Of a DNA stretch of 40,453 bases, positions 27,972 through 40,453 are shown in pieces; within the stretch, counting starts at the first letter, position 1; each line of letters begins with the position of its first letter. This DNA is from a virus: positions 1-40,453 of the IMG/VR virus record IMGVR_UViG_3300023099_000005; one strand, 5' to 3'. Made by a program: the position numbers and the translations under genes. The notes under the pieces were generated by a model. The model saw only the letters and a program-made list of their open reading frames with translations. It did no database searches and was not told where the DNA came from.

Positions 27972-28143
27972 TCGCCGATTTAATGTCGTGAATCCAGTAA
28001 TCGAACGCATCGATAGCAAATTGCGCCTGTTTAATTTCATCTCCCATGTCCTCGTGACGCGACCACTTCTCGATTTTAGATCGATAAATATCCTGACGAT
28101 CTGAAATCTTTTTCAGAATCAGTTCCAGTTCAGCCGCACTCAT
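27955..28143 (-). CDS. Small helical protein, last gene of the leftward accessory operon
   Basis: This 62-residue protein starts at ATG 28143 with GGGGGAGAG seven bases upstream, overlapping the stop of the HNH gene by 4 bases. It is predicted all-helical and charged (ELELILKKISDRQDIYRSKI, AQFAIDAFDYWIHDI). The frame is open further upstream, but the ribosome site supports this start. Function unknown. Confidence 0.68.
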   Translation of the reverse strand: MSAAELELILKKISDRQDIYRSKIEKWSRHEDMGDEIKQAQFAIDAFDYWIHDIKSAINAPP

Positions 28144-28493
28144 GGTCTCTCCCCCTTGTGTTGGTGGAGGGCTTGGCGGGCCCACGGTGGCCGTATCGGC
28201 GGACGCGTGACGAACCCAAGTCCTCTTCGAAACCGAACCTTCTGTTGGCGGGTCATGTCGCCCATCAGTTCGTTGCACTGTTTATGGGCAAGAAAGATGT
28301 TATCGCTTTCCCATGTACCGCCGTGACTTTTGGGGGTCAGATGCTCCAGCGTTCGGGAAAGCGATCCGAACCGCTCAAACTTCCCGGCGCAAAGCCAGCA
28401 TTGGTTTCCATCCCTTGCGGCGGCAGCCTCCGTTAGCCGTTGTCGCTCTTCGTGGCTCGGACGCGCCTCTACCATTTTGCGGAGGTCAGTCAT
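28140..28493 (-). CDS. HNH endonuclease
   Basis: This 117-residue protein has the compact HNH core: a CWLC knuckle at about residues 32-35, LEHLTPKSHGGTWESDNIFLAH (the H of the first motif and the N), and HKQCNELMG closing the zinc site. The N-terminal helix and basic tail (RPPIRPPWARQALH) would bind DNA. It could be a mobile nuclease or part of packaging, but packaging HNH proteins usually sit beside terminase, and this one does not. It overlaps both neighbours by 4-8 bases. Confidence 0.86.
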   Translation of the reverse strand: MTDLRKMVEARPSHEERQRLTEAAAARDGNQCWLCAGKFERFGSLSRTLEHLTPKSHGGTWESDNIFLAHKQCNELMGDMTRQQKVRFRRGLGFVTRPPIRPPWARQALHQHKGERP

Positions 28494-28659
28494 TTGACAG
28501 CCTCAGGGCAAGGTCGCGTTTTTCACGAACGGCGCGCGGCGTATCGGCCCAGTTGACGGAACGTCCGCAGCGACGGCACTCGAAAGCTGGCTGGTGGATT
28601 TGTTTCGCAAGAATCATCGTTGATCCTGACGGCGCGTGACCGAACAAGAAACACGTCAC
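28486..28659 (-). CDS. Small zinc-ribbon-like phage protein
   Basis: This 57-residue protein begins MTCFLFGHAPSG and has a knuckle CRRCG in the middle, a combination (Cys, GH, then CxxC) common in tiny phage proteins expected to bind zinc. The start is GTG 28659, overlapping the previous stop (GTGA); a start at an internal ATG would drop the first Cys/His pair. It overlaps the HNH start by 8 bases. Function unknown. Confidence 0.62.
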   Translation of the reverse strand: MTCFLFGHAPSGSTMILAKQIHQPAFECRRCGRSVNWADTPRAVREKRDLALRLSND

Positions 28660-29054
28660 GGCTCGCCTCCTACAGAAGGGGCTTCGGGGAGGGGCTGCCA
28701 GTCTTCATATTCAGCGGCCAACTTGCACCCTGAACGGGCAGCCGTCAGGAGGGCGAGGATGGCGTCGGCGTCTTCGAGATAGAAGTGCCAGACTGGCGCT
28801 TCAGACTTGGCCTCGTTCATCCAGATCGAGTGGCCAATATCAATATGGCCGCGCTGCTTCGCCAACACCCTCGCAACCGCCTCCCTCAAAACTCCCTGTG
28901 GAAGGGGGTCGGGGGCGGCTGCTAGCATGGCGCGGTAACAGATCGCGAAATCCTCGCGCTCCAAATCACCCGGTGCGGAAAAATAGGCTTCCGCGCCCGC
29001 CTCAATCATCGCCTCGGTCGGTTCAGTCGGGACTGTGGTCGTGGGGGTGGTCAT
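28656..29054 (-). CDS. Hypothetical phage protein
   Basis: This 132-residue protein starts at ATG 29054 (ATGA overlap with the gene before). The N-terminus TVPTEPTEAMIEAGAEAYF and the helix CYRAMLAAAPDP form a pattern that recurs in alphaproteobacterial phage hypotheticals, and the C-terminal part ends in EDWQPLPEAP. No enzymatic motif. Function unknown. Confidence 0.7.
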   Translation of the reverse strand: MTTPTTTVPTEPTEAMIEAGAEAYFSAPGDLEREDFAICYRAMLAAAPDPLPQGVLREAVARVLAKQRGHIDIGHSIWMNEAKSEAPVWHFYLEDADAILALLTAARSGCKLAAEYEDWQPLPEAPSVGGEP

Positions 29055-29260
29055 GGGTTCACCGTTGCGTAGATCGACCACTGATCCGGCCCGCCGGTCA
29101 GGTAGTCATGAAGGTGGTATCGCCGGGTCATCACGGGCCGGAGCCAGACGAAGCGCCCGTCGAAGGTGCGGACCGGGAGCCACGCGAAGGTCTTGCGCCA
29201 GTCGCTGATCGGAAAGCCGAACTGCATCCGTGCGTATTGGTCAGCCCAGAAACCGCTCAT
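29051..29260 (-). CDS. Small aromatic-rich hypothetical protein
   Basis: This 69-residue protein is rich in Trp, Tyr and Phe (MSGFWADQYARMQFGFPISD, then TFAWLPVRTFDGRFVWLRPV) and looks like a single small beta-rich domain. It overlaps the genes on each side by 4 bases. No family recognised. Confidence 0.68.
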   Translation of the reverse strand: MSGFWADQYARMQFGFPISDWRKTFAWLPVRTFDGRFVWLRPVMTRRYHLHDYLTGGPDQWSIYATVNP

Positions 29261-29562
29261 GACGGCTCCTTGGCGGCAGCGAGGCGGGCTTTGCGGGCTG
29301 CAATCAGAATGACCCGTTTCAGATGGGGCCAGCGAACGGCTTCGCGCTCGGCTTCTGTCTCGATGGCCTCCAACGCCTCCCCCATCCCCGCGACCTGAGC
29401 CTCAAGGGCGAGGATGCGGGAGACAAGTTCGGCGGCGATCACGTAGATGTTCGACGGAGCCACACCGCCGCCGTCCGCTCCCGTTCGGCGACCGAGGCTG
29501 ATCTGTCGTCCCGCCCGTTCGACCAGGCTCTCCACCTTCTCGGGCGGGTTGGGCTGGGTCAC
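29257..29562 (-). CDS. Hypothetical protein with coiled-coil region
   Basis: This 101-residue protein starts at GTG 29562, six bases after GAGG. The region IYVIAAELVSRILALEAQVA followed by ALEAIETEAEREAVRW is a probable coiled coil, and the end is a basic helix (VILIAARKARLAAAK). It overlaps both neighbours by 4 bases. No function assigned. Confidence 0.66.
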   Translation of the reverse strand: MTQPNPPEKVESLVERAGRQISLGRRTGADGGGVAPSNIYVIAAELVSRILALEAQVAGMGEALEAIETEAEREAVRWPHLKRVILIAARKARLAAAKEPS

Positions 29563-29717
29563 AGGTCCCTCCCCTTCGATCCGTCTTGAAAGGGATCGCG
29601 ACCCGCAACGATGTCGGCAGCGACCTTCTTAGCGGCGAGCCTGATGCCTTCTTCGATCACATCCATGGGGACGCCTTTAGCGAGCAGTTCAGCGACGACT
29701 TTTTCAGTTGCGGTCAC
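29559..29717 (-). CDS. Small hypothetical protein
   Basis: This 52-residue protein starts at GTG 29717 with a strong GGAGGAA ribosome site and overlaps the stops and starts of its neighbours (GTGA, TGTGA). It is predicted helical (TEKVVAELLAKGVPMDVIEE, LAAKKVAADIV) with a polar tail. It resembles short phage proteins of unknown function. Confidence 0.66.
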   Translation of the reverse strand: MTATEKVVAELLAKGVPMDVIEEGIRLAAKKVAADIVAGRDPFQDGSKGRDL

Positions 29718-30133
29718 TTCGATTCCTCCGATGCGGTGCTGAGGGCCTTCAGGATGGCGGCGGACAGAGCGAGGGCTGGCGACCCAGATCGACCGTTGCC
29801 AAGGTCAAGCGGCCCCTCTTCGTGCTTGTCTCCGATCCACGCGTACCAGTCCCTACGGTGCACGTTCTTAGCGACGCCGGGACAGCACCCCGGCAGCACG
29901 CGCTGCGCCAAAGCCAGCGCGGCGTCGATGGAGGTGGTGACGGGGGCAATGGCTGGTCGGTGAGGGTCTTCCCCGCAGGCGGTGCAGGTGAACCCGCTGT
30001 CGCCCTGAATGCAGTAATATTCGGTCTCCCGGTGCGCGCAGTCACCGCAAGCCTCAACCACGTCCATGGAGAGCGCCTTAGACCCCTCCCCCGCGCTTTC
30101 CAGCCGAGCGATCAGCGATGTGTGGTCAGTCAT
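29714..30133 (-). CDS. Hypothetical protein with paired cysteines
   Basis: This 139-residue protein begins MTDHTSLIARLESAGEGSK, a start seen on many short phage proteins of unknown role. It has Cys pairs CGDC (about 29-32) and CTAC (about 50-53) which could form a zinc-binding knuckle, and a third Cys pair, GCCPG, around 82-85. A WYAWIGDKHEEGPL segment and helical tail follow. Not a recognised enzyme. Confidence 0.7.
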   Translation of the reverse strand: MTDHTSLIARLESAGEGSKALSMDVVEACGDCAHRETEYYCIQGDSGFTCTACGEDPHRPAIAPVTTSIDAALALAQRVLPGCCPGVAKNVHRRDWYAWIGDKHEEGPLDLGNGRSGSPALALSAAILKALSTASEESK

Positions 30134-30402
30134 AATCCAAGCTCCGCGTCCGACAGGTATTCGGGGGATTTTCCGACCGCGATCTTCGGCTCCTCGAAAC
30201 TGTATCCGAGCTTTATCAGCGCCTCACGGGCCTCTCTCAGCTGTTCTTCGGCCTCGACGTGCGCGAAGTCCAAGGTAGTGAGCCTTTCCACTCGACGGCT
30301 CTCGCGCTCCACCTCAAGCAGCTTTTCATATCGGGCGTCATACTCGGCTTGCACCGCGGCTCTCAGCACGCGCTCAAGGGCCTCTCTCACCGTGTCACCC
30401 AT
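30130..30402 (-). CDS. Helical hypothetical protein
   Basis: This 90-residue protein is charged and helical, with a coiled-coil-like centre (YEKLLEVERESRRVERL, EAEEQLREAREALIKL). ATG 30402 shares one base with the stop before it; GTG 30405 is the alternative start. It ends within a 4-base overlap with the next gene. No known family. Confidence 0.66.
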   Translation of the reverse strand: MGDTVREALERVLRAAVQAEYDARYEKLLEVERESRRVERLTTLDFAHVEAEEQLREAREALIKLGYSFEEPKIAVGKSPEYLSDAELGL

Positions 30403-30704
30403 CACACGCCCTCCCCAGCGGTTGGGGCCAGGGCGGCGAGGCCTTCGTCAGTGATACGATAGGCATGGTAGTCGCCTTTACGGTCGATCCAGCCGCGCTC
30501 AACACCTGCTTTCAATGTGGCCGGTTGAAAATCGCCGTAAGCCCGCTCCCAGCAGTAGATGGGTTCTCGCGGCCACCAATACCCCGTTGCCCATTCTTCC
30601 TGCTTGGACGCCGACGCTAGAAAGCCAGCTGCGCTGATCATACTTTCGCGGTAGGCCTTCAAGAACTCTAGCGCCGCGAACAGGCGCTGTTGGGAGCGGC
30701 TCAT
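30402..30704 (-). CDS. Small winged-helix-like protein
   Basis: This 100-residue protein ends with ATLKAGVERGWIDRKGDYHA and YRITDEGLAALAP, the recognition helix and wing pattern of winged-helix domains in small phage proteins. The N-terminal helices (QQRLFAALEFLKAYRESM) would complete the fold. DNA binding is likely, but the target is unknown. It is coupled to both neighbours. Confidence 0.66.
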   Translation of the reverse strand: MSRSQQRLFAALEFLKAYRESMISAAGFLASASKQEEWATGYWWPREPIYCWERAYGDFQPATLKAGVERGWIDRKGDYHAYRITDEGLAALAPTAGEGV

Positions 30705-31906
30705 TTCGTGACCCCAAGACGGCGCATTTCCGCGTCCAGCAAATCAGCCGGGACCGTGTCACGCAGAATATCCGCGTCTGAAACTTCCGGCTCCAGCGCC
30801 GCCCCGGCCTTGGGGAAGATCGCGCGGACTTCCTCCACGGTCGCGGGCGTGAAGTCGTATTGCGACGTGCTGGCGGTCCAGTGTTCATTGCCGATGCGCG
30901 GAAACTGACCGGGCGCGTAGGGTGAAGGCAGTTCAGCGTTCCAGACGAAGACCTCTTCCCCCTTGGTCGTGGTGTCCTTCCAGCCATCGCCGTCGATCCT
31001 GCCGACGCCCTTCAGGACGACCGCCCCGGCCAGACCGGAGGGGTGGGCGGACGTAGACAGTTCGCCGTGGAACGGAAGCCATCCGATAACCTCGGCATCG
31101 ACGGCCTCCAGCAGGAAGTCTTGCGACCAATCCCACCCGACGACCTGCCAGCGATCCTCGCCAGTGTTGTCGAGGTTGTTGAACCCGATAGTCCAGCTGA
31201 GTTCGGCGTCGTCGAGCGGCGTCCATGACTTATCGCTGGCCGGATCGTAACGAACCCGGAGGCGCAGGAACGTCCCATCGCGGGGCGCGAGATCAATCGG
31301 CAACGCGGCCAGCTCGTTCTGTGTAATCGGAGCCACCGCCCCGGCCTGTGCGGGTGGGGAGGAGGACAGGGCGGCGAACAGCCGACGAAGGACCCGCAGG
31401 GGCAGATCATCATCGCCTTGGACGCGGTATCCGTCATCTTCGGCGCGCAGACTATCCAGCAGCACTCGAAGCTCATTCATTTCGGCCAGCACCGCCCCGC
31501 TCTCCCCGCCCGGTTCCGAAGCGGCGGGGGATAGGCTGGCGAGACGGAAGGCGATGATGTCGGGCCAGTGGGCATTGTCCGGATTGCAGTCCGTAATGAT
31601 GTCGTCGGGGTACCAGCAGGACCGCACATCGACTTGGCAGCCCGTCAACGGAGGTTCTTTCCAGCCGCCTTCCGGAGCAGCGATCCAGCCGTCAGGGTCG
31701 GGACGACCAATGAAGGTGAAGGCGTCTATGCTGTCCCGCGCCAGATCGCCATTGGCCGGCCTCTTGGCCACGATGCGACCGGGCGAGATGGTCAGACGTT
31801 CGAACACCCATGTCGAGTTGTCCCACTCGCCGTGCAAAACGTCCCCCGCCTTCAGCAGCGTCACGTCCTCGGCAGTAAGCGGGGTGTTGGGGGTCGGGGT
31901 GGTCAT
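30701..31906 (-). CDS. Large hypothetical protein with DUF551-like segment
   Basis: This 401-residue protein is the longest in the accessory operon. It begins TPLTAEDVTLLKAGDVLHGE with a small barrel-like domain (VFERLTISPGRIVAKR). Around residue 210 comes PIDLAPRDGTFLRLRV and later EVIGWLPFHGE, which matches the APKDGT ... W-x-P layout of DUF551-like phage proteins. A third part near 320-370 (GEEVFVWNAELPSPYA) is separate. It may be several small phage domains fused together. ATG 31906 overlaps the preceding stop. Confidence 0.68.
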   Translation of the reverse strand: MTTPTPNTPLTAEDVTLLKAGDVLHGEWDNSTWVFERLTISPGRIVAKRPANGDLARDSIDAFTFIGRPDPDGWIAAPEGGWKEPPLTGCQVDVRSCWYPDDIITDCNPDNAHWPDIIAFRLASLSPAASEPGGESGAVLAEMNELRVLLDSLRAEDDGYRVQGDDDLPLRVLRRLFAALSSSPPAQAGAVAPITQNELAALPIDLAPRDGTFLRLRVRYDPASDKSWTPLDDAELSWTIGFNNLDNTGEDRWQVVGWDWSQDFLLEAVDAEVIGWLPFHGELSTSAHPSGLAGAVVLKGVGRIDGDGWKDTTTKGEEVFVWNAELPSPYAPGQFPRIGNEHWTASTSQYDFTPATVEEVRAIFPKAGAALEPEVSDADILRDTVPADLLDAEMRRLGVTK

Positions 31907-32235
31907 GATTGCTCCGTGATGGCGATCCAAACCCAGGCCGCTTTGCACAGCAGGTGGAGGGCTTGATCCTGATTGAATGAGAGGCGCGACCGGCATTTCA
32001 GATCGTCGATCACGAAGTGCGCGGCGAACTCCAGCAGGCCCAGCCACCACACACCGGTGATGAGGCCGACTGCGCCGCCATGGATCGCAGCGTGCGCGCC
32101 TAGAAGCTGCCACCACGGCATTCCGGGGATCGGAGCCGTGCGGTTCTTTCCCTTGGCGAGGAAGTCGCCCTGCAAGGGGTAATCGCAAAGGGCGTGACCG
32201 GCAACGAGACCAGCAAACATAGCGAGAGCGCTCAT
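31903..32235 (-). CDS. DUF3307-like membrane protein
   Basis: This 110-residue protein has about three hydrophobic segments. The first, LAMFAGLVAGHALCDYPLQG, holds the H-x-x-x-D-x-x-x-Q pattern of the DUF3307 family; LLGAHAAIHGGAVGLI carries the second conserved His pair, and the third is near residue 70 (LLEFAAHFVIDDLK). The conserved His/Asp residues suggest metal binding in the membrane, but the family's role is not known to me. Confidence 0.76.
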   Translation of the reverse strand: MSALAMFAGLVAGHALCDYPLQGDFLAKGKNRTAPIPGMPWWQLLGAHAAIHGGAVGLITGVWWLGLLEFAAHFVIDDLKCRSRLSFNQDQALHLLCKAAWVWIAITEQS

Positions 32236-32678
32236 TGGCCGGTCGCCTTCGAGATGGCGGCAAGGATCAGGTCCCGTCGCTCGGTGAAGACCTTCACGAA
32301 CTGATCTGCGTCCGGGTCCTCGCCGTGCTCAATGCAGTCCTGCCGGGCGCTTTCGACATCCGCCTCTGCGATGAGCAGGCCCTCTCGCGCCGCCTCCAGC
32401 AGATCAGGAGCCGACGCGATCAGGTTTCCGACCTCGTTCTGGATGCGCATGGCATCCGCCTCCGCCAGACCAAGCGCGCCGCCGCCGCCTCCGGTGAGGT
32501 ACCCCCAGCCGCGAACCATGGCGGGTGTCGCCTGACCGCCCTTGAGGCTGTCGGACCAGATGTACCCGCGATCGTGCTTCCACTCGCCCGGGTAGGCCGT
32601 CCGCCATGTCAGCGCCCCCTGCCCGCCCGGGGTGGGTTGCGTGGATGGGGTGGCGTGTGTATCCTGCGGTTTCGTCAT
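32232..32678 (-). CDS. Hypothetical phage protein
   Basis: This 148-residue protein begins with a low-complexity Thr/Pro stretch, then WRTAYPGEWKHDRGYIWSD and a long Gly run (GWGYLTGGGGGALGL), and ends with a helical region (APDLLEAAREGLLIAEADVE) common in phage proteins of the same type. ATG 32678 has GGAGAG unusually close; an in-frame ATG seven codons upstream is another option. Function unknown. Confidence 0.66.
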   Translation of the reverse strand: MTKPQDTHATPSTQPTPGGQGALTWRTAYPGEWKHDRGYIWSDSLKGGQATPAMVRGWGYLTGGGGGALGLAEADAMRIQNEVGNLIASAPDLLEAAREGLLIAEADVESARQDCIEHGEDPDADQFVKVFTERRDLILAAISKATGQ

Positions 32679-32709
32679 CTTCTCTCTCCAGAGTTCCAAG
32701 GATGATGGT

Positions 32710-32744
32710 GGCCGGTCTCTTGTGATGAGGGACCGGCCTTTTTT
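32710..32744 (+). terminator. Intrinsic terminator facing against the surrounding genes
   Basis: GGCCGGTC at 32710-32717 pairs with GACCGGCC at 32731-32738 and is followed by TTTTTT at 32739-32744 on the plus strand. All genes around it point left, so it would stop rightward transcription through the accessory operon. In the leftward direction the same hairpin starts 8 bases after the stop of the 32747-33169 gene and lacks a U-run. Confidence 0.7.
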
Positions 32745-32746
32745 GT

Positions 32747-33169
32747 TTAGGTGGTAGCCGCTTCCAGTGCTTTTGTCGCCGCCTCTATTTGGGCTCGGAC
32801 AAGGTCAAGCGTGTAATCAACGGCTGATTGAGGATCGCTGTGCACTACCTCATGAGGCCATATCTGGTAAGGCGCTCGTATCTCGGCAGTATACCCGCTT
32901 ATGATATAAGTTCCCTTGAGCTTTGATCCCTGTGTTTGAGCGTGAACTCTTAAGGAAGCTTTTCGAGCCTCGAAATGCCACCCACAGTTTTCCCATACGT
33001 GAGGCTGCCACCCATCTCCCAGCCGATTGCAAAGAAATTTTGCTTCTGCTTGGGCTCGGTCATGAGCCGTTTTCGTGCACCCAAAGCCGCACCAGGCGCT
33101 ACAATAGATGTCGTCTACGCCAGCCTTTGGCCCTTGTGAGCAAAAATCGGTCTTTTCGGCACTAACCAT
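32747..33169 (-). CDS. Cysteine-rich hypothetical protein
   Basis: This 140-residue protein has a cluster of Cys and Trp residues near the start (FCSQGPKAGVDDIYCSAWCG, then FGCTKTAHD), likely a metal-binding module. A globular part follows (LGDGWQPHVWENCGWHFEAR, IISGYTAEI) and a C-terminal helix. ATG 33169 follows GGAGAGAG closely. The pattern of Cys and the position suggest a small phage-specific protein; no family recognised. Confidence 0.68.
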   Translation of the reverse strand: MVSAEKTDFCSQGPKAGVDDIYCSAWCGFGCTKTAHDRAQAEAKFLCNRLGDGWQPHVWENCGWHFEARKASLRVHAQTQGSKLKGTYIISGYTAEIRAPYQIWPHEVVHSDPQSAVDYTLDLVRAQIEAATKALEAATT

Positions 33170-33205
33170 CGTCTCTCTCCATATCCGGTAACCACACACT
33201 ACGCC

Positions 33206-33409
33206 CTATTCGTCCGCCGTCAACGCCTTTTTCTCGCGATGACGCTTCCACCTGATTTCGTTGCCCTTTGGCTGGATTTCAGCGCGGACCTCGGGCGAGA
33301 CAGCCGCATATCCTTTCCTCCCCTTTACCGCCCCGCCCTTCGCAGCGATCTCCTTGCGGCGCTCGGGGGTCATGAGTTGGAAGCCACGGGGGGCGCGGGG
33401 AGGGGTCAT
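33206..33409 (-). CDS. KGG-repeat (stress-protein-like) small protein
   Basis: This 67-residue basic protein contains GFQLMTPERRKEIAAKGGAV, the KGG motif of con-10/Gsi-type stress proteins, followed by a second, degenerate unit (VSPEVRAEIQPKGNEI). Such proteins occur in bacteria and phages, but the molecular role is unclear. ATG 33409 overlaps the preceding gene's stop; the open frame extends further upstream without a better start. Confidence 0.7.
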   Translation of the reverse strand: MTPPRAPRGFQLMTPERRKEIAAKGGAVKGRKGYAAVSPEVRAEIQPKGNEIRWKRHREKKALTADE

Positions 33410-33588
33410 GCTGGCTCCCATCTTTTTGTGGTGTAGCCACACGCCTTGGCTGCGACATGAAAATCTTTGAACTTGAGCGCCTCTTCGATTGAGCAATAAG
33501 GCCCGGTCGGAAAATGAATTCCCATAACGCTCGGCCAGAGTCGGAAAAGCTTCCCGTCACTAAAGATGCGGATACGTGGTTTTCTCAT
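33406..33588 (-). CDS. Small hypothetical protein
   Basis: This 60-residue protein begins MRKPRIRIFSDGKLFRLWPS and ends in ALKFKDFHVAAKACGYTTKR, a basic beta-then-helix layout like a small double-stranded-DNA or RNA-binding domain. It overlaps its neighbours by 4 bases (ATGA). Function unknown. Confidence 0.66.
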   Translation of the reverse strand: MRKPRIRIFSDGKLFRLWPSVMGIHFPTGPYCSIEEALKFKDFHVAAKACGYTTKRWEPA

Positions 33589-33803
33589 TTGTCGTTCTCT
33601 CCCGGTACGTCCGCAAACCAGCGGACGCCATCCTTGGCCGTTAGATATGGTCTTCCGTCGTCGTCCCACTTCAAGCGCTCAGCGGCGTCGCATATCGAGT
33701 TCCAAGCCTCAAGCGTTGGCATTCCAAGAGCGCAGAGTGTCTGAAAAACCTTACCGTTAGTGGTGGATTTGCGAACCTGCTCGCTGTTGATCTGCTCACT
33801 CAT
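33585..33803 (-). CDS. Small hypothetical protein
   Basis: This 72-residue protein has a helical N-terminal part (NGKVFQTLCALGMPTLEAWN) and a C-terminal WDDDGRPYLTAKDGVRWF segment. No family recognised. It overlaps genes on both sides by 4 bases in the leftward operon. Confidence 0.65.
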   Translation of the reverse strand: MSEQINSEQVRKSTTNGKVFQTLCALGMPTLEAWNSICDAAERLKWDDDGRPYLTAKDGVRWFADVPGENDK

Positions 33804-34018
33804 CCCACACTCCCCGCCAACCGCGCCTCCCGCTCCAGCCGCCGGATCATGGGCTTAAGGGCGCGCTGTGCGTCGATGGAGCGATCAACCGCAAGCCTGG
33901 CCGATGTCAGGGCCGCCAGTGTCGATGTGCCCGTAAGCGCCGTTGCAGCGCGTTTCGCGTCGTTGTGCGCGCGGGTTGCGAGATCGTGGATGTTTGAGGG
34001 GATGGGGAGGCGGTTCAT
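33800..34018 (-). CDS. Small helical protein
   Basis: This 72-residue protein is almost entirely helical and Ala/Arg-rich (LATRAHNDAKRAATALTG, RLAVDRSIDAQRALKPMIRR). ATG 34018 overlaps the stop of the tiny membrane gene before it, which favours it over GTG 34024. Function unknown. Confidence 0.65.
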   Translation of the reverse strand: MNRLPIPSNIHDLATRAHNDAKRAATALTGTSTLAALTSARLAVDRSIDAQRALKPMIRRLEREARLAGSVG

Positions 34019-34131
34019 CCCCACACGCTCCCACAGATCACGCCCAAGGTGAACGCCGCCAGAAGCATCGCGCAGCCGATTACGAACAGCAGGGCGTACC
34101 CGCGCTTCATGTCCGATCCGTCGTAGTTCAT
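34015..34131 (-). CDS. Tiny single-pass membrane protein
   Basis: This 38-residue protein is one transmembrane helix (YALLFVIGCAMLLAAFTLGV, residues about 12-31) with a short polar N-terminus (MNYDGSDMKRG). Start and stop both overlap neighbouring genes by ATGA. Such peptides often act in host membrane modulation or superinfection exclusion in phages; nothing more specific is visible. Confidence 0.6.
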   Translation of the reverse strand: MNYDGSDMKRGYALLFVIGCAMLLAAFTLGVICGSVWG

Positions 34132-34349
34132 TGTCCTGTTCCTTGTTTCAGTTCAACCGCACGCGCGGCCTTTGAAGTGAGGGTGTCCAGACGCGAGGTC
34201 AGGAGCCTCATGCGGTGAATGTCTTCCGACGAACTCGGGCCGAACCGTTCCAGATTGCCAATCGCCAGATTGAGCAGGCTCATCGAATTCTCGAACGACG
34301 CCGGGGCGCGGACGTTGAGGGTTTCGGGGTATTGGACGCAGTCGGTCAT
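34128..34349 (-). CDS. Small helical hypothetical protein
   Basis: This 73-residue protein reads as two helices (ENSMSLLNLAIGNLERF and HRMRLLTSRLDTLTSKAARA) with no recognised family. It overlaps the genes on either side by 4 bases. Confidence 0.64.
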   Translation of the reverse strand: MTDCVQYPETLNVRAPASFENSMSLLNLAIGNLERFGPSSSEDIHRMRLLTSRLDTLTSKAARAVELKQGTGQ

Positions 34350-34618
34350 TGCATGGCCACCTTAAGAAGGTCGAGAGCGCGACGAGCGTCCTCTTGACGT
34401 ACAGCCTCTCGTAGGCTGTCGGCATCCCACGAACCCAAAGAAATCCTTAGTTCCTCACCTCCGTCAGGCCCGTTTGCGCCTTTTGCTGGCTTGTCCTGTC
34501 GGCGCTTCAGTTCCTCGGCAAGGACACTCGTTTCAATGTCGGACAAAATGTCGTCCACATCGATTTCGACTTCTGCATCTACGGTAGCGTAGATTGTTCC
34601 ATTACGAACGCGCGCCAT
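34346..34618 (-). CDS. Acidic hypothetical phage protein
   Basis: This 90-residue protein begins MARVRNGTIYATVDAEVEID, a short strand segment, followed by an acidic helix (VDDILSDIETSVLAEELKRR) and a C-terminal helical pair (DSLREAVRQEDARRALDLLK). The N-terminal pattern is one I recall from other small phage proteins, all unnamed. ATG 34618 shares a base with the stop before it. Confidence 0.66.
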   Translation of the reverse strand: MARVRNGTIYATVDAEVEIDVDDILSDIETSVLAEELKRRQDKPAKGANGPDGGEELRISLGSWDADSLREAVRQEDARRALDLLKVAMQ

Positions 34619-34896
34619 CACACTCCCTCCATCTGCACATCAACCATCCGCCCGACCAGATACGGCTCGGCGTCGATAATCATACAGGCGATCTCCGTCG
34701 CCTGATCGTGTTGCTGTTCCGGCGCGGTGTGTTTGCGCACCAGAGCGACCACATCGGCTACGGTCTTCTCTGCGCGGACGACAAAGTCAGTCGCCTCGTC
34801 GCGGCTGGCCTGTGTGTTGCCGTGGCGGTCTGCGTTTTCGGCGAAGAACTCGTTGACGGCGCTGAACAGGGATTGTTGGGCGGGGGTGTGGGTCAT
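34618..34896 (-). CDS. Small helical hypothetical protein
   Basis: This 92-residue protein is helical, with AQQSLFSAVNEFFAENAD and TVADVVALVRKHTAPEQQ. It is the second gene of the leftward operon and overlaps the first by 4 bases. No known family. It may act early because of its place near the promoter. Confidence 0.66.
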   Translation of the reverse strand: MTHTPAQQSLFSAVNEFFAENADRHGNTQASRDEATDFVVRAEKTVADVVALVRKHTAPEQQHDQATEIACMIIDAEPYLVGRMVDVQMEGV

Positions 34897-35222
34897 TTGT
34901 CTGACTCAAGAGCTTCAACGGACGGTCGTTCAGCAGTCTCAATTAGAAGGCTCAGAACTTGCGCTGGGGTTTGCCAGCCCAAGACGGTGTCGCCGTCGGG
35001 CAGTTCGATCAGCTCGCCTGAAGGCGACAGAATGGCAACTTCGGCTGTCGTAGACGGGTTGCTTTTGACTTCGCGACCGATCCCGTCGTCGTAGTTGTCG
35101 CAGTAGTTTCCGCCGCCAAACTGGACGCTTACGGTCCAGCCGTTTTCAAACGACACGTGAAAGCCCTTGCCGCGAGTGATAGCAAAGCCGCCGCGCCTTT
35201 CGTCTGTGTTCGGGGTTCTCAT
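34893..35222 (-). CDS. First gene of leftward accessory operon, hypothetical
   Basis: This 109-residue protein has a beta-rich middle (KGFHVSFENGWTVSVQFGGG, NYCDNYDDG) followed by AEVAILSPSGELIELPDGDT and a helical end. The F-x-N-G-x-x-x-S-V-Q-F-G-G-G-N-Y pattern is a familiar small phage domain of unknown function. ATG 35222 lies six bases after GGAGA; a TTG two codons upstream is less likely. It is transcribed from the divergent region at 35223-35342. Confidence 0.72.
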   Translation of the reverse strand: MRTPNTDERRGGFAITRGKGFHVSFENGWTVSVQFGGGNYCDNYDDGIGREVKSNPSTTAEVAILSPSGELIELPDGDTVLGWQTPAQVLSLLIETAERPSVEALESDK

Positions 35223-35234
35223 CTTCAATCTCCA

Positions 35235-35292
35235 GTTCCAGTAACCGGAACCATGGACGGGGATTGCGGGGGTGTCAATGACCGATTTGGTC
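35235..35292. promoter_or_regulatory. Divergent control region with two inverted repeats
   Basis: The 120-bp gap between the leftward accessory operon and the rightward early operon holds GTTCC-7-GGAAC (35235-35251) and GACC-5-GGTC (35280-35292), 28 bases apart. Either could be an operator for the Cro-like protein encoded at 35343. A T-run follows at about 35303-35309. No convincing -10/-35 pair was identified on either strand. Confidence 0.4.
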
Positions 35293-35342
35293 TAGACGCA
35301 ATGTTTTTTCAGGGTAAGGTGAGGCCTCAACTGGAGAGCAGC

Positions 35343-35552
35343 ATGAAGACCGAAATCACACGCGACGAGGTTACGACCCTCGTTAAAAACGCCGTCGCAA
35401 AATACGGTGGCGCTATCAAACTGGCGGCGAAACTGGACGTTACGCCAAGCTACATAAGCCACGTCCTCAACGGCAAGAAGCCAGGCCCAAAGGTCTGCAA
35501 ACTCGTCGGCGTCGAGGAAATCCGGGATACGTGGCGGAGGGTGGTGAAGTGA
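35343..35552 (+). CDS. Cro-like HTH transcriptional regulator
   Basis: This 69-residue protein is essentially one helix-turn-helix domain: KYGGAIKLAAKLDVTPSYIS contains helices two and three, followed by HVLNGKKPGP and a C-terminal DTWRRVVK helix. This layout is that of Cro/YdaS-like phage regulators. It starts at ATG 35343 with CTGGAG nearby and is the first gene of the rightward early operon, so it probably binds its own divergent promoter region to set the balance between the two operons. Confidence 0.82.
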   Translation: MKTEITRDEVTTLVKNAVAKYGGAIKLAAKLDVTPSYISHVLNGKKPGPKVCKLVGVEEIRDTWRRVVK

Positions 35553-35821
35553 ATAATCCAGCAGCATGGCTCTACACAGAGAACAGGTGGAAAGATGGAC
35601 CACACCATCGATTGACCCTATTCCGCCAGTCCATTTCTGAAGAAGACAAGGCGGAATACGAGATCACAGAAGACGCGCTCTACACTCATCCTCTCTTCAC
35701 CCCCGCCGAACGCCAATACCTCCTGCGCCTGCTCGGCGGGTCGCTGGAAGGTGGCGAGGGGATGACGGCGCTGGGGGTGCTGGAGTTGCGGGGGAAGTTG
35801 GAGGGGATGGGCGATGAATAA
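35549..35821 (+). CDS. Small hypothetical early protein
   Basis: This 90-residue protein starts at GTG 35549, overlapping the HTH stop (GTGA), with GGAGG upstream. It contains AAWLYTENRWKDGPHHRL and FTPAERQYLLRLLGG, short patterns from small phage proteins. The end overlaps the next start by 8 bases. Function unknown. Confidence 0.68.
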   Translation: MNNPAAWLYTENRWKDGPHHRLTLFRQSISEEDKAEYEITEDALYTHPLFTPAERQYLLRLLGGSLEGGEGMTALGVLELRGKLEGMGDE

Positions 35822-36203
35822 CCCTCTTGATGTTCTAAATTCTGAAGAGCTTTCCGATCCGTTTCAGGCGGCGGCTGACCTCAAGGTCAAACTGGATAAG
35901 GCGGAAAAGCACATCACACACCTTATGGAGCGGCTTGAGGATCAGCAGAAAGCCATGTCGAAAGGCGTTTCTCATCTGCTTACCGCTTATCAGGTTGAGG
36001 GTACTCTCGACGATTTTGGAGATCGTCACATCATTTTTCGACCAACGTGCGGCAGCTTTACTCTTAGAAGAGAAGCGGCGTGGGAAATGAGAAACACAGG
36101 CAACGTCGAACGGTTTCTGGAGGATGAATCACGCATTTGGGCGCGGACAGTTCTTCAGAAAGTTTGGAGGGTTGCTAACCCCGGAGTGAAAACAATCCGA
36201 TGA
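35814..36203 (+). CDS. Hypothetical early protein with coiled coil
   Basis: This 129-residue protein has a coiled-coil N-terminal half (LKVKLDKAEKHITHLMERLE, residues about 23-42) and a mixed C-terminal half (DRHIIFRPTCGSFTLRRE). GGAGG lies just upstream of ATG 35814. It overlaps the GcrA-like gene by 4 bases. No function recognised. Confidence 0.68.
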   Translation: MNNPLDVLNSEELSDPFQAAADLKVKLDKAEKHITHLMERLEDQQKAMSKGVSHLLTAYQVEGTLDDFGDRHIIFRPTCGSFTLRREAAWEMRNTGNVERFLEDESRIWARTVLQKVWRVANPGVKTIR

Positions 36204-36511
36204 TCACCCACGCCAACCAGAACACCACCCCGTGGACACCGGAGAAGACCGCAACCCTGATCCGACTGCACAAGGAAGGCCGCACCTTCAACCAGATCGC
36301 ACACGAGATGAAGATGACGCGCAATCAGGTCTGCGGAAAGCTGGACCGTCTGGGTCTTGTCGGCGCTGAGTCCAAACGCATCCGCACCTATCACCGAAAG
36401 ATCAACATGAACCCGCGCAAGATCGACCGTGGCGATTGGGACATGAAGCTGTTCGAGCCGTGGGCCGTGCGGAAAGAACGGATTCAGAGGGAGCGCGCCA
36501 ATGTGCGATAA
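36200..36511 (+). CDS. GcrA-like DNA-binding protein
   Basis: This 103-residue protein matches the N-terminal DNA-binding domain of GcrA, the alphaproteobacterial cell-cycle regulator. The pattern is PWTPEKTATLIRLHKEGRTF, then NQIAHEMKMTRNQVCGKLDR and LGL, i.e. W-T-x-E ... L-x-x-G-x-x-x-x-Q-I-A ... T-R-N-x-V-x-G-K-x-x-R-L-G-L. GcrA binds methylated GANTC sites and sigma-70. The C-terminal half here (residues 60-103) is basic and does not look like the GcrA sigma-binding end, so it may act as a competitor or have different partners. It overlaps the next regulator by 11 bases. Confidence 0.83.
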   Translation: MITHANQNTTPWTPEKTATLIRLHKEGRTFNQIAHEMKMTRNQVCGKLDRLGLVGAESKRIRTYHRKINMNPRKIDRGDWDMKLFEPWAVRKERIQRERANVR

Positions 36512-36848
36512 TTGCGCCCGCCTTCAGCGACAGGTCCGCGAACTCAAGGAGGAGATTGCGGAGTATGAACGTGGCGGACCACCGACAGACAAGTCAGAAT
36601 CCTCTCCATACCAGATCAAGTACAAGATGACGCCTTCCGAGGCGCGCACGCTGACTGAGCTTATCAAAAGTAGCCCCAAGCCGGTATCAAAAGACAGGCT
36701 GCACTTTGTCGTTTCGGGAGAAACCGAACCGCAAATCGTTCAGGTCTATGTATGCAGGATTCGCAAGAAACTCCCGCCCGCTACGATCATAACGGTTAGC
36801 GGAGCAGGCTACTACATCCCGACCGACAAGTTGGAGGCAGTACGTTGA
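36501..36848 (+). CDS. OmpR/CtrA-type winged-helix protein without receiver domain
   Basis: This 115-residue protein begins MCDNCARLQRQVRELKEEIA, a CxxC knuckle followed by a coiled coil. The rest is an OmpR/PhoB-type winged helix: MTPSEARTLTELIKSSPKPV, a recognition helix in QIVQVYVCRIRKKL, and the wing TIITVSGAGYYIP. This order is the same as in CtrA and other response-regulator DNA-binding domains, but no phospho-receiver is present. It probably dimerises by its coiled coil and binds DNA constitutively. Similarity to CtrA specifically is only a possibility. Confidence 0.82.
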   Translation: MCDNCARLQRQVRELKEEIAEYERGGPPTDKSESSPYQIKYKMTPSEARTLTELIKSSPKPVSKDRLHFVVSGETEPQIVQVYVCRIRKKLPPATIITVSGAGYYIPTDKLEAVR

Positions 36849-37090
36849 AAGAATGGATCATAGAAGACGACGTGCCCCTTCCGCCTCCGCATCAGTCAAG
36901 GCCGCCCAAGGGGCATGCCAGAGCGCTCACCGAGGCGCTTCGTGACCTGAAGGTGGGTCAGTCGCTCTTTACCAAGGAATACAGCGCTGCGACGCTGGGA
37001 GGTCGTCACTCGACCCTGACTCGGGTATGGGGCTATCGTTATGCGACTCGGTCGGTTGACGGCGGCGTCAGGGTTTGGAGAACAGAATGA
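36845..37090 (+). CDS. Small phage protein, DUF7303-like
   Basis: This 81-residue protein begins at TTG 36845, overlapping the previous stop, with GGAGG eight bases upstream. A proline-rich start is followed by LRDLKVGQSLFTKEYS and the ending WGYRYATRSVDGGVRVWRTE, the pattern of a small phage domain often listed as DUF7303, of unknown function and often found with regulators. It may bind nucleic acid. Confidence 0.7.
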   Translation: MKEWIIEDDVPLPPPHQSRPPKGHARALTEALRDLKVGQSLFTKEYSAATLGGRHSTLTRVWGYRYATRSVDGGVRVWRTE

Positions 37091-37392
37091 CCAACATAAT
37101 CCCTTTTCCATCACCGATGCCCGCGCAGGAAGGCGAGATGCAATATCTGACGCTTGAACAGTTTTTTCAGGTGCTCACCAAACAGAAAACCATTGCTGAT
37201 CTGAAGTGGGAAAAACGCCACGAGGAATGCCTGAACGAACTTCGCCCTTATAGCATCGCCGACCTGCGTCGGTTCTGGGATGAGGTGAGCGACGAGACGA
37301 GTTTCTATGAGGGTCCAGAAGGCCTGTTCGACTGCGCCGACATCCACACCGTTTTGAACGAAAAAGGCGATGGATATTATTGTGCGGTGTAG
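37087..37392 (+). CDS. Small acidic hypothetical protein
   Basis: This 101-residue protein has a short Pro-rich start (NIIPFPSPMP), a helical middle (YLTLEQFFQVLTKQKTIADL) and an acidic C-terminal part (WDEVSDETSFYEGPEGLFD). ATG 37087 overlaps the preceding stop and follows GGAGA. No family recognised. Confidence 0.68.
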   Translation: MTNIIPFPSPMPAQEGEMQYLTLEQFFQVLTKQKTIADLKWEKRHEECLNELRPYSIADLRRFWDEVSDETSFYEGPEGLFDCADIHTVLNEKGDGYYCAV

Positions 37393-37579
37393 TCCGTTGA
37401 CCGGCCTGGCGCGCGTCATGACCATTCTGGAATCGTGTCCCGGCACGGTCGCCAAGGAGGTGTTCTATCGCCACGGCATCCCGCAGGCGTCGCTGCTGAC
37501 GTGGATCAGCCATGCGCGGCTTGAGGGGATTCAGGTCGAGTCCGTTAGGTGTCTGGGGTATCGGCTGGTGCGGGGATGA
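37370..37579 (+). CDS. Minimal OmpR-type winged-helix protein
   Basis: This 69-residue protein is only a winged-helix domain of the response-regulator output type: LTGLARVMTILESCPGTVAK matches the first helices (L-T-x-x-x-x-x-x-x-L-x-x-x-P-G), ASLLTWISHARLEGI is the recognition helix, and VESVRCLGYRLVRG is the wing. There is no receiver domain. It overlaps the preceding gene by 23 bases and the helicase start by 4. It is a second bare OmpR-type protein in the same operon. Confidence 0.76.
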   Translation: MDIIVRCSPLTGLARVMTILESCPGTVAKEVFYRHGIPQASLLTWISHARLEGIQVESVRCLGYRLVRG

Positions 37580-39057
37580 TCCAGTTAAGAGAAGACCAAC
37601 AACAGGCCGTTGACGACATGCGCGCCGCGCTGAAAGACCATCAATCGATCCTGTTCCGTGGGCCAACCGGCGTCGGTAAGACCGTGATCGCGGCCTATAT
37701 GGCCCGTGCATCCACAGAGAAACGCCGCCGCGTTATCTTCGGGGTCCACCGCCGCGAACTCGCGGAACAGACCGCGAAGACGTTCGACCAGTTCGGAATC
37801 AAGTATGGGTTCATCGCAGCCGGTCGCCCATCTAACCCGTTCGCCATGGTCCAGATCGCCAGCGCGGACACACTCCGTTCACGTCCCGGTCTGCTGAAGG
37901 GGTGCAAGCTGTTCGTCCCTGACGAATCGCACCTGTGGGCCAGCAAGACCCGCTCAGCCCTGATCCACGCGGCACGGGCTGAAGGCTCGCTGATCGTCGG
38001 CCTCACTGCAACGCCAGAACGTCTGGACGGGAAACCTCTGGACGGCCTGTTTGATCATATGGTGCAGGGGCCGTCCGAGTCCTGGCTGATCGAGAACGGC
38101 CACCTGTCGCGGTATCGCGCCTATGCACCTGTGCGACCAGACTTCACGGGCCTGCACACGCAGATGGGCGAATACGTCACCTCCGAGCTTGAAGAGAAGT
38201 TCGATAAGCCCGCTATCCATGGCGACGCAATCGACGCTTGGAGAAAATACGCGGCGGGAAAACGAACGATGGTGTTCGCGATCTCCAGGAAGCATGGCCA
38301 GCACGTTACCGACGAATACAACGCAGCGGGGATTCCGGCTGTCTATATTGACGGGACAATCTCGAATGACGAGCGCCGGTCGCGAATCCTGAAGTTCGCT
38401 AACGGGCAGGCGATCATCCTCGTTTCCATCAACCTCGCCATTGAGGGATTCGATCTTTCCGCACAGGTTGGCCGCGACGTGCCTGTCCAGTGCGTCCAGC
38501 TTCTCAACCCGACGAAATCCAAGGCTCGTGCGCGCCAGATGATGGGCCGCGCGCTCCGTAAGAAGCCTGACGAAGCGATCATCCTCGACCATGTCAATAT
38601 GATTATGAACAAGGACGGGACTGTCAACCACGGATTTCCTGACGACGAGATAGAATGGTCTCTGGAGGGGCGGGCGAAAAATAAACAGGAGTCTGCGGGG
38701 GAACTGGCGATCAAACAGTGCGAATCCTGTTTCGCGACGTACAAGGCCGGACTTAGGGCCTGTCCGTACTGTTCCAGTGAGCGCGTCGTGAAGGAGCGCA
38801 AGGTTGAGCAGATCGAAGGCGAACTGGCTGAGATTCAGCGGGCCAGAGAGGCTGGCGAGATAAAGAAGGTCGCTCGCATGGAAGTAGGCAGAACCTCAGA
38901 CATTGAGAAACTGGCCGACATCGCTTTTTCGAGAAAATACAAAACTGGCTGGCTGATCAGCCAAGCAAAGATCAAAAAACTCGATCCCATTACTTGGAAC
39001 GCGGCCTGCAAACTTATGTTTGACGCGAAGGCCCGCGCTCAAAAGGTTGCAGCGTGA
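37576..39057 (+). CDS. SF2 DEAD/DEAH-type helicase with C-terminal zinc ribbon
   Basis: This 493-residue protein has the superfamily 2 helicase motifs in order: motif I GPTGVGKT (29-36), motif II DESH (115-118), motif III LTATPER (about 137-143), and the C-terminal domain with IAISRKHGQHV-like motif IV, NLAIEGFDLSA and motif VI QMMGRALRKKP. A zinc-ribbon segment follows (CESC ... CPYC, about 377-395). It is likely to remodel replication forks or recombination intermediates. Its stop overlaps the SLOG gene start, which in turn overlaps the VRR-NUC gene. Confidence 0.93.
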   Translation: MIQLREDQQQAVDDMRAALKDHQSILFRGPTGVGKTVIAAYMARASTEKRRRVIFGVHRRELAEQTAKTFDQFGIKYGFIAAGRPSNPFAMVQIASADTLRSRPGLLKGCKLFVPDESHLWASKTRSALIHAARAEGSLIVGLTATPERLDGKPLDGLFDHMVQGPSESWLIENGHLSRYRAYAPVRPDFTGLHTQMGEYVTSELEEKFDKPAIHGDAIDAWRKYAAGKRTMVFAISRKHGQHVTDEYNAAGIPAVYIDGTISNDERRSRILKFANGQAIILVSINLAIEGFDLSAQVGRDVPVQCVQLLNPTKSKARARQMMGRALRKKPDEAIILDHVNMIMNKDGTVNHGFPDDEIEWSLEGRAKNKQESAGELAIKQCESCFATYKAGLRACPYCSSERVVKERKVEQIEGELAEIQRAREAGEIKKVARMEVGRTSDIEKLADIAFSRKYKTGWLISQAKIKKLDPITWNAACKLMFDAKARAQKVAA

Positions 39058-39323
39058 TCCTGCTGGTTACGGGCGCTAAAGGGTTCTGCGAAGTCCGCCC
39101 TGGCATGGACCACATGCACGAACGTCGCTCGCTGGGCTGGACGTTGGATTTCATCAAACCGGACGCGGTTATATCTGACGGCGAGCCTGGAGCCGGTCGC
39201 TGGGCTCGTATATGGGCCGAGAAACGCGGGATAGACGTTACAGCCGGTCGTCCTGACTATTGCTTATCGTTCGACGGAGGGCCTATCCCTGAGGGCGTGT
39301 CAGCCTATCAGGTGAAAACGTGA
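39054..39323 (+). CDS. SLOG-superfamily protein (YspA/DUF2493-like)
   Basis: This 89-residue protein has a Rossmann-like start (ILLVTGAKGFCEVRPGMDHM), then IKPDAVISDGEPGAGRWARI followed by WAEKRGIDV, the G-x-x-x-G-A-x-x-x-A-x-x-W-A pattern of YspA/DUF2493 proteins. SLOG domains bind nucleotides or their derivatives and are found in sensing systems; here the conserved motif has PGAGRW instead of the usual GADR form. GTG 39054 and GTG of the next gene overlap neighbouring stops, so helicase, SLOG protein and nuclease are cotranslated. Confidence 0.76.
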   Translation: MILLVTGAKGFCEVRPGMDHMHERRSLGWTLDFIKPDAVISDGEPGAGRWARIWAEKRGIDVTAGRPDYCLSFDGGPIPEGVSAYQVKT

Positions 39324-39706
39324 CCCCCGCCGCCATTCTCACGAACCAGATTCGTCTAGCCGTGTCCGACATCGGGGCGCGGCTTTTCGTTGTGACGGTC
39401 GGGAAGTTCTGGTCGGGTCAGGTAGTCGGAAAAACCCCGTCAGGAAATCTGATCCTCAAGAACGCCCGTATCGTCAATGTCGGTTTCGAGGGTCAGTCAG
39501 ACCTCTGCGGGTTTACGCGTACGCTGATCACGCAGGATATGGTCGGGACCACGCTGCCAATCTTCAGTGTAGTGGAGGTGAAGGCTGGGAAAGACCGCAT
39601 CCGACCGGCTCAGCAGAAATATATCGACGCAATCAAAAAAATAGGGGGGCGGGCTGGTGTGGCCCGCTCCCCTGAGGATGCGATTAGGATATTGGGCGGC
39701 GATTAG
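39320..39706 (+). CDS. VRR-NUC domain nuclease
   Basis: This 128-residue protein has the VRR-NUC signature at its end: FSVVEVKAGKDRIRPAQQKY (catalytic E-x-K of the PD-(D/E)XK fold, then R-x-x-Q), followed by a helix and IGGRAGVARSPEDAIRIL. The catalytic Asp is probably in GFEGQSDLCGFT (about 54-65). Such small phage VRR-NUC enzymes cut branched DNA such as Holliday junctions. Its stop overlaps the 3' end of SSB on the other strand by 4 bases. Confidence 0.88.
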   Translation: MTPAAILTNQIRLAVSDIGARLFVVTVGKFWSGQVVGKTPSGNLILKNARIVNVGFEGQSDLCGFTRTLITQDMVGTTLPIFSVVEVKAGKDRIRPAQQKYIDAIKKIGGRAGVARSPEDAIRILGGD

Positions 39707-40104
39707 AACGGGATGTCGTCGTTCGGATCGATTGAATACGACTCGCGCTGGCCGCCGTCCTGTTTCGGCTCATCCCGCTTCGAATCCGACCGCGCTTCGT
39801 TCTCGGCCTTCGACGACATGAACGTCAGTTCGTTCACCGTCAGGCCCAGGTACGCCTTGCCGTCGTGTGCCCTGGCCGACGGGCGACCTTGCACGCACAG
39901 TTTCGAGCCCTTGGCGATATAGGGGGCCAGAGACGCAGCTCGCTTACCCCACAGGGCGCAGTCGTACCACGTCGCTTCGCGCTTCTCTCCGTTCTTGTCC
40001 TTGCCATTGTCCACGGCAATCGAAAAATTCAGAACCTCGTCGCTCCCTACTTTCTTCAGGTCCTTCACGTTGCCGACGTTACCGGCGATGGTCAGGGTTT
40101 GCAT
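39703..40104 (-). CDS. ssb: Single-stranded DNA-binding protein
   Basis: This 133-residue protein is a bacterial-type SSB: an OB-fold N-terminal domain (MQTLTIAGNVGNVKDLKKVG, then ATWYDCALWGKRAASLAPYI and GSKLCVQGRPSARAHDGKAY) with a disordered, charged linker and the acidic tip DPNDDIPF that recruits partner proteins. It protects single-stranded DNA during replication and recombination. It is the last gene of the leftward recombination operon, 3 bases after the join-spanning protein. Confidence 0.92.
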   Translation of the reverse strand: MQTLTIAGNVGNVKDLKKVGSDEVLNFSIAVDNGKDKNGEKREATWYDCALWGKRAASLAPYIAKGSKLCVQGRPSARAHDGKAYLGLTVNELTFMSSKAENEARSDSKRDEPKQDGGQRESYSIDPNDDIPF

Positions 40105-40107
40105 GGT

Positions 40108-40453
40108 CTAGTTCTCCGTCTCGGTTTTAAAGGATTCGATCTTCTCGGTAACCATGGTGGCGATTTCGCCAGCACGGACTTTATCGGTTGCTCGTGCCTG
40201 CTCACGGAACGGGCGCTGTTCGCCCCACCATGCCGCCAGTTCGTCGCCGTCTGCGGCGCTGGAAACGTAAGCCTCTACGTCAGAGGCGAACTTGTCGATG
40301 TCGAACGATGACTGGACCGCCTTGATCGGTGCGACGGCGGCTTTCAGCGGCTTCACCTTAAAGGGCTTCGGATTTCCCTTGGACGCCGTCAGGGAGAACA
40401 CCATGTCCCGTTCGATGTGGGACATATTGCTGATTCGGATTCCACCAACAGCC
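40108..40453 (-). CDS. Conserved phage protein, C-terminal part (gene continues from 405-1)
   Basis: This is the 3' portion of the gene that starts at 405. Bases 40108-40326 encode the last 72 residues, and 40327-40453 repeat the sequence of 1-127. The C-terminal half begins with a Lys-rich segment (LTASKGNPKPFKVKPLKAAV) and continues as helices (DIDKFASDVEAYVSSAADGD, REQARATDKVRAGEIATMVT). Although ATG 40425 is an apparent start here, it is an internal Met of the 207-residue protein. It lies between exonuclease and SSB in a single leftward operon. Confidence 0.85.
   Translation of the reverse strand, partial: AVGGIRISNMSHIERDMVFSLTASKGNPKPFKVKPLKAAVAPIKAVQSSFDIDKFASDVEAYVSSAADGDELAAWWGEQRPFREQARATDKVRAGEIATMVTEKIESFKTETEN
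40327..40453. repeat. Terminal direct repeat, right copy (circularisation overlap)
   Basis: This is identical to bases 1-127. Merging the two copies gives a circle of 40,326 bp and restores one uninterrupted 207-codon gene across the junction, which argues for a circular or circularly permuted molecule and against a linear end at this point. Confidence 0.93.

Follow-up and report, generated by a model that had tools for sequence, protein, structure and literature searches.

GcrA is an unusual cofactor of sigma-70 that depends on methylation. The Caulobacter protein is 173 aa long and is composed of a DNA-binding domain (DBD, residues 1-45), a linker and a sigma-interacting domain (SID, residues 108-173) (PMC7403470). 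Homologues of GcrA in phages have been published since 2012, phiCbK gp222 among them (PMC3556154, PMC6630229, PMC11836647). Phage-encoded GcrA is thus known, and the pair of regulators described here, a GcrA-like protein devoid of SID followed by a winged-helix protein, is a variant of known phage-encoded regulators. The DNA-binding domain is common to the GcrA-like protein and Caulobacter GcrA, and the recognition helix is nearly unchanged, but the phage protein is shorter, lacks the SID and has a different conserved tail. Like the published phage homologues it is a GcrA-family protein encoded by a phage; most of the phage homologues examined here carry a SID, whereas this one does not. In the papers and collections searched, we found no description of such a SID-less GcrA/winged-helix pair, nor of the GcrA-DnaA chimera presented below.

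The window, i.e. the whole stretch of DNA that was analyzed, is the IMG/VR virus record IMGVR_UViG_3300023099_000005 (40,453 bases). Its genome is of podophage type, and the genes for portal, terminase, major head, DNA ejection and endolysin are P22-like. The closest terminases (49-52%) are those of Rhizobium phage RHph_Y1_10, Microcystis phage Mae-JY35, Sulfitobacter phage pCB2047-A/C and Paracoccus phage KLEP18-1, and the nearest relative of the portal is found in a Chlorobiaceae phage (43%). Because the terminases and the portal point to different phage groups we can only infer the host, which is likely an alphaproteobacterium. At the DNA level, positions 28001-40453 of the window have no match among isolated phages. 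A separate observation concerns Paracoccus phage KLEP18-1 (L102), whose whole record holds 3 GANTC sites in 39 kb compared to about 86 expected, a near-complete avoidance of the CcrM site.

The features of the locus are listed in Table 1. The original prediction had described a phage operon encoding three regulators, one GcrA-like and two of OmpR/CtrA type; the operon reading is right, and the three open reading frames lie exactly where they had been placed. The order xre, GcrA, winged helix, helix-turn-helix is kept in five sister contigs (L005, L006, L007, L010 and L012), and the helicase gene comes next in four of them. In four of the five sisters the helix-turn-helix gene lies directly 3' of the winged-helix gene, so the two small genes that separate them in the window look like insertions, the second being common to the window and L005. 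For the first small protein, no Pfam or PHROG match was found; it belongs to a family with 86 relatives in viral contigs versus 1 in genome contigs, and four tandem paralogues are present in L016 (2381-3373). A gene for SSB adjoins the operon in the window. The corresponding slot is filled in two sisters by a second CxxC OmpR-type winged helix, on the minus strand (L006 4621-5007, L010 8275-8661).

Table 1. Features of the early region of the window
Feature	Position	Strand	Evidence
Conserved block of about 60 bp, candidate operator/leader at divergent early promoters	35220..35278	-	Conservation in sisters
Small HTH protein of XRE/Cro-like type, opening the rightward operon	35343..35552	+	HTH_3 5.2e-5; PHROG transcriptional repressor 5.4e-7
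GcrA-type DNA-binding domain protein without SID	36200..36511	+	PF07750; PDB 5yiu; NF050816; tail alignment
Receiver-less protein: CxxC and coiled coil (residues 1-23), then OmpR-type winged helix (approximately 40-108)	36501..36848	+	PF00486; AF2; Foldseek; sister alignment
Small protein of the WIIEDG...DGGxRVWR family, inserted relative to sisters	36845..37090	+	Relatives in viral contigs
Small protein	37087..37392	+	86% identical in L005; dN/dS 0.12
Minimal helix-turn-helix candidate	37370..37579	+	HTH_Tnp_1 0.0023; sister conservation; low-confidence three-helix model
DNA helicase of DEAD/ResIII type, further downstream in this operon	37576..39057	+	PHROG 16 DNA helicase 5.3e-79; ResIII 6.3e-19
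Endonuclease/Holliday-junction-resolvase-like protein	39320..39706	+	PHROG 93 1.6e-10; PHROG 5702 1.2e-7; VRR-NUC reading by eye

The assignment of the 36200-36511 protein to GcrA holds over the DNA-binding domain only. It matches PF07750 at profile positions 3-54 of 155 (E 5.9e-9, 36.9 bits for a cut-off of 26.9) and the GcrA DNA-binding domain of known structure (5yiu, E 6.6e-5), with which it shares the recognition helix TRNxVxGKxxRLGL. The full-length equivalog NF050816 is matched over positions 2-61 of 173, at 33 bits compared to a cut-off of 280. As had been predicted, the sigma-binding C-terminus is missing: with a profile derived from eight SIDs of phage proteins, complemented by a motif, no SID was detected anywhere in the window, and a split GcrA with its SID encoded elsewhere in the window was rejected. 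As a positive control the profile recovered Y1_10, which is itself among the profile's sequences. The same profile found a SID in most of the other phage GcrA homologues examined (BL57, DMCA, Bajun, Ssp-JY42, Y1_10 and most IMG/VR loci). In place of the SID the protein has a conserved tail, W-x4-L-x-E-x-W-x2-RK-x-R-x3-ERA in the gapped alignment, of which the residues W, L, E, W, R, K, R, E, R and A are invariant in the window, two sisters, Caulobacter phage RW gp061 and L021. Tandem GcrA-type DNA-binding domains, at least two per phage protein and with or without SID, were observed in three other contigs (L020 3441-3842, L021 3249-3842 and L040 6048-7034).

The second protein of the pair is indeed a receiver-less OmpR-type winged helix preceded by a CxxC/coiled coil. 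The PF00486 (Trans_reg_C) match is above cut-off (2.6e-10) and is the only match in its 115 aa, leaving no receiver domain. The AlphaFold model (pLDDT 77) has the fold of PhoB: its best Foldseek matches in the PDB are all DNA-binding domains of the OmpR/PhoB family, with probability 1.00 and a best E of 2.7e-3, and the viral matches are OmpR/PhoB-type phage proteins. The N-terminus follows the pattern C-x2-C-x2-L-x3-V-x2-L-x3-I-x2-Y, which reads as a coiled coil behind a short CxxC motif and could hold a constitutive dimer. The label "CtrA-type" has to be dropped. In NCBIfam, TctD comes first (4.6e-8) and, with TorR (2.2e-4), stands far above CtrA, which comes tenth (0.022), and the recognition helix varies among sister phages; kinship with CtrA was therefore rejected.

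The third protein (37370-37579) had also been called OmpR-type, and this part of the prediction was not supported. It has no PF00486 match, a profile comparison with the 36501-36848 winged helix showed no similarity, and its model, made of three helices at low confidence (pLDDT 56), gave no significant fold match. The HTH_Tnp_1 match is weak. Translation may start at the ATG at 37370 or, as in the sisters, at a TTG at 37397, which gives 60 aa. It is 86-95% identical in the five sisters, and the GcrA-like protein is 86-94% identical in three; with dN/dS of 0.12-0.19 where measured, both genes are real and under purifying selection.

The winged-helix gene behaves differently. The DNA identity between the window and L005 is 93% over 36200-36568, falls to about 50% across the winged helix and returns to 87% from 37084 onwards. 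The N-terminal residues 1-23 of the protein are identical at 23/23 positions, whereas the winged-helix domain retains 44% identity and its recognition helix 5 of 13 residues. Since the domain diverges while residues 1-23 and the flanking DNA stay near-identical, the targets of the protein probably differ between phages. Such a sharply confined divergence, together with an XRE protein that is only 44-65% identical among sisters, is what would be expected if the winged helix and XRE proteins were fast-evolving specificity factors by which sister phages are told apart, in the manner of a repressor and its operator. We consider heteroimmunity or exclusion of this kind very unlikely: no tyrosine integrase (PF00589) is present in the window or in the sisters, so lysogeny is not evident, repeated operators were not found, and the divergence could be neutral mosaicism.

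Candidate target sites were looked for in the DNA itself. The conserved block at the divergent promoters is 98% identical in L005 and L010, 88% in L007 and 79% in L012. Read by eye, it would contain a TTGACA-like -35 on the minus strand and the GGAG and ATG of the leftward gene. It also includes a perfect 17-bp palindrome, GTTCCAGTAACCGGAAC, at 35235-35251, which was discarded as a repeated regulon site, the window having one perfect copy only. In the window and four near-complete sisters the full CtrA site TTAA-N7-TTAA is absent, DnaA-box-like sites number 0-2 per record and GANTC occurs at 0.64-0.87 of the Markov expectation. No GANTC is present between 34903 and 36126 of the window, a stretch which includes the divergent promoter region (35229-35342). 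With CtrA sites absent, DnaA-box-like sites few and GANTC under expectation, there is no sign of a CtrA, DnaA or GcrA regulon on the phage DNA. In the sister L006, GANTC is not depleted (1.02). In this same contig the GcrA-like gene is flanked by one N6/N4 DNA methylase (PF01555) and one gene that is methylase-like by eye and has no Pfam match (312-998 and 1296-1817).

A takeover of the host cell cycle, as suggested in the original prediction, is possible. The SID-less protein would then be a dominant-negative competitor of host GcrA at methylated GANTC promoters, with the winged helix acting on host promoters, and the pair would set a replication-friendly state. The near-identity of the recognition helix to that of Caulobacter GcrA and the loss of the SID agree with this, as does the scarcity of GANTC in the phage DNA, by which most targets would lie on host DNA; the phage GcrA of phiCbK has moreover been proposed to alter the host state (PMC3556154). 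We nevertheless hold interference in this form to be unlikely. The winged helix is not CtrA-like and its specificity helix changes from sister to sister, unlike a factor devoted to a fixed host site; the GcrA gene is itself replaced by a chimera in two sisters; and the host of the window phage is only an assumed one.

In these two sisters a single gene joins a GcrA-type DNA-binding domain to DnaA domain IV (L010 5194-5628, L012 5209-5625). The PF08299 (Bac_DnaA_C) match reaches 31.8 bits in L010, above the cut-off of 31.5, and 29.1 bits in L012, below it, and Pfam recognizes the GcrA half weakly (0.002 in L010 and 5.4e-4 in L012). No other fusion of this type was found among the viral contigs, isolated phages and plasmids searched. 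In L012 the first codons of a window-type GcrA remain upstream of the chimera, as if recombination had swapped it in. The chimera speaks for an alternative in which the small DNA-binding proteins act not on transcription but on replication, by recognizing the origin of the phage and loading or guiding the products of the helicase, primase and SSB genes. Also in its favour, the operon continues into genes for a helicase and an endonuclease, with SSB adjoining, and in phage RW the pair comes after the helicase; yet neither a cluster of DnaA-box-like sites nor a repeated site occurs in the window or sisters, and regulators and replication genes are commonly mixed in phage early operons. A direct role in replication appears unlikely. 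A broader proposal is that alphaproteobacterial phages put together interchangeable regulators by keeping only the DNA-binding domains of host cell-cycle regulators (GcrA, DnaA, OmpR-type) and dropping the signalling parts. The chimera would then be bivalent in its DNA binding and could block origin or cell-cycle sites of the host, or bridge them. We regard this generalization as quite unlikely.

Neighbouring genes of similar types were found in other phages. In Caulobacter phage RW, a VRR-NUC-like gene (gp058), the helicase (gp059), a winged helix (gp060) and a short GcrA (gp061) follow each other with overlaps of a few bases. Elsewhere in RW, gp042 has a weak DnaA-domain match (0.0094), and gp049 (L117 6372-6935) is SID-like by a weak Pfam match (0.043) and has no GcrA DNA-binding domain; gp049 and the SID-less gp061 are possibly the two parts of a split GcrA. 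In phage Ssp-JY42 a SID-bearing GcrA overlaps a winged helix with CxxC, and a DnaA-domain gene lies about 3.7 kb downstream. The remaining cases are distributed as follows: consecutive winged-helix, DnaA-IV and GcrA genes in L149/L152; GcrA adjoining a DnaA-IV gene in L138, L151 and L155; GcrA followed by a coiled-coil winged helix in L132/L136; and a similar GcrA/winged-helix pair in L016. The DnaA-IV match of L145 was unconfirmed by Pfam. Compared with one background set of other phage early regions, counts that include several loci found via one of the two domains gave 2/27 versus 0/40 clusters for GcrA/winged-helix adjacency (p 0.16) and 4/27, one of them doubtful, versus 3/40 for GcrA/DnaA-IV adjacency (p 0.29). 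Neither difference is significant. A statistically proven module was therefore rejected, and the adjacencies are suggestive only. Likewise the partnership of the GcrA-like and winged-helix proteins is not proven, the neighbourhood not being significantly enriched over this background.

The explanation that we prefer, and to which we give about an even chance, is that the GcrA-like, OmpR-type and XRE proteins are local regulators of phage early and replication gene expression, free of the phospho-signals of the host. The early operon of this P22-like podophage would encode a pair of stand-alone DNA-binding proteins. Because the recognition helix of host GcrA is kept and the SID is absent, the first is expected to recognize a GANTC-like and possibly methylated sequence but not to recruit sigma-70, and its tail probably contacts a partner. 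The second would be a constitutive dimer through its CxxC/coiled coil, which is proposed to replace the receiver and so to make target binding independent of phosphorylation. With the XRE protein, the pair likely regulates early and replication genes locally, and possibly also occupies host sites. The sequences themselves establish which domains are present, that SID and receiver are absent, the gene order with its conservation, purifying selection, and the turnover of the winged-helix domain from sister to sister; we infer the dimerisation, the DNA targets, the joint action of the pair and the repression or activation that it would exert.

With natural SID-less versions of phage GcrA one can test directly whether the recognition of methylated DNA is uncoupled by phages from polymerase recruitment, and also whether these versions act on host or phage DNA. 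The presence of such a version in the cultured Caulobacter phages RW, GB2A, RLK and KcrB makes the question testable. As regards the second protein, it has in common with OmpR/PhoB response regulators and with OmpR/PhoB-type phage proteins (the "CtrA" of RDJL Phi 2, RcMcLean gp60) a winged-helix DNA-binding domain; it differs from them by the absence of a receiver, by its CxxC/coiled-coil N-terminus and by a recognition helix that is not CtrA-like. A close arrangement is that of RW gp060/gp061, also present in GB2A, RLK and KcrB and annotated as hypothetical. Its gene order is reversed, and RW has the weak SID-like gp049 and the weak DnaA match of gp042 elsewhere; as in the window, a CxxC/coiled-coil OmpR-type winged helix adjoins a SID-less short GcrA with the same tail, alongside a helicase and a VRR-NUC-like gene.
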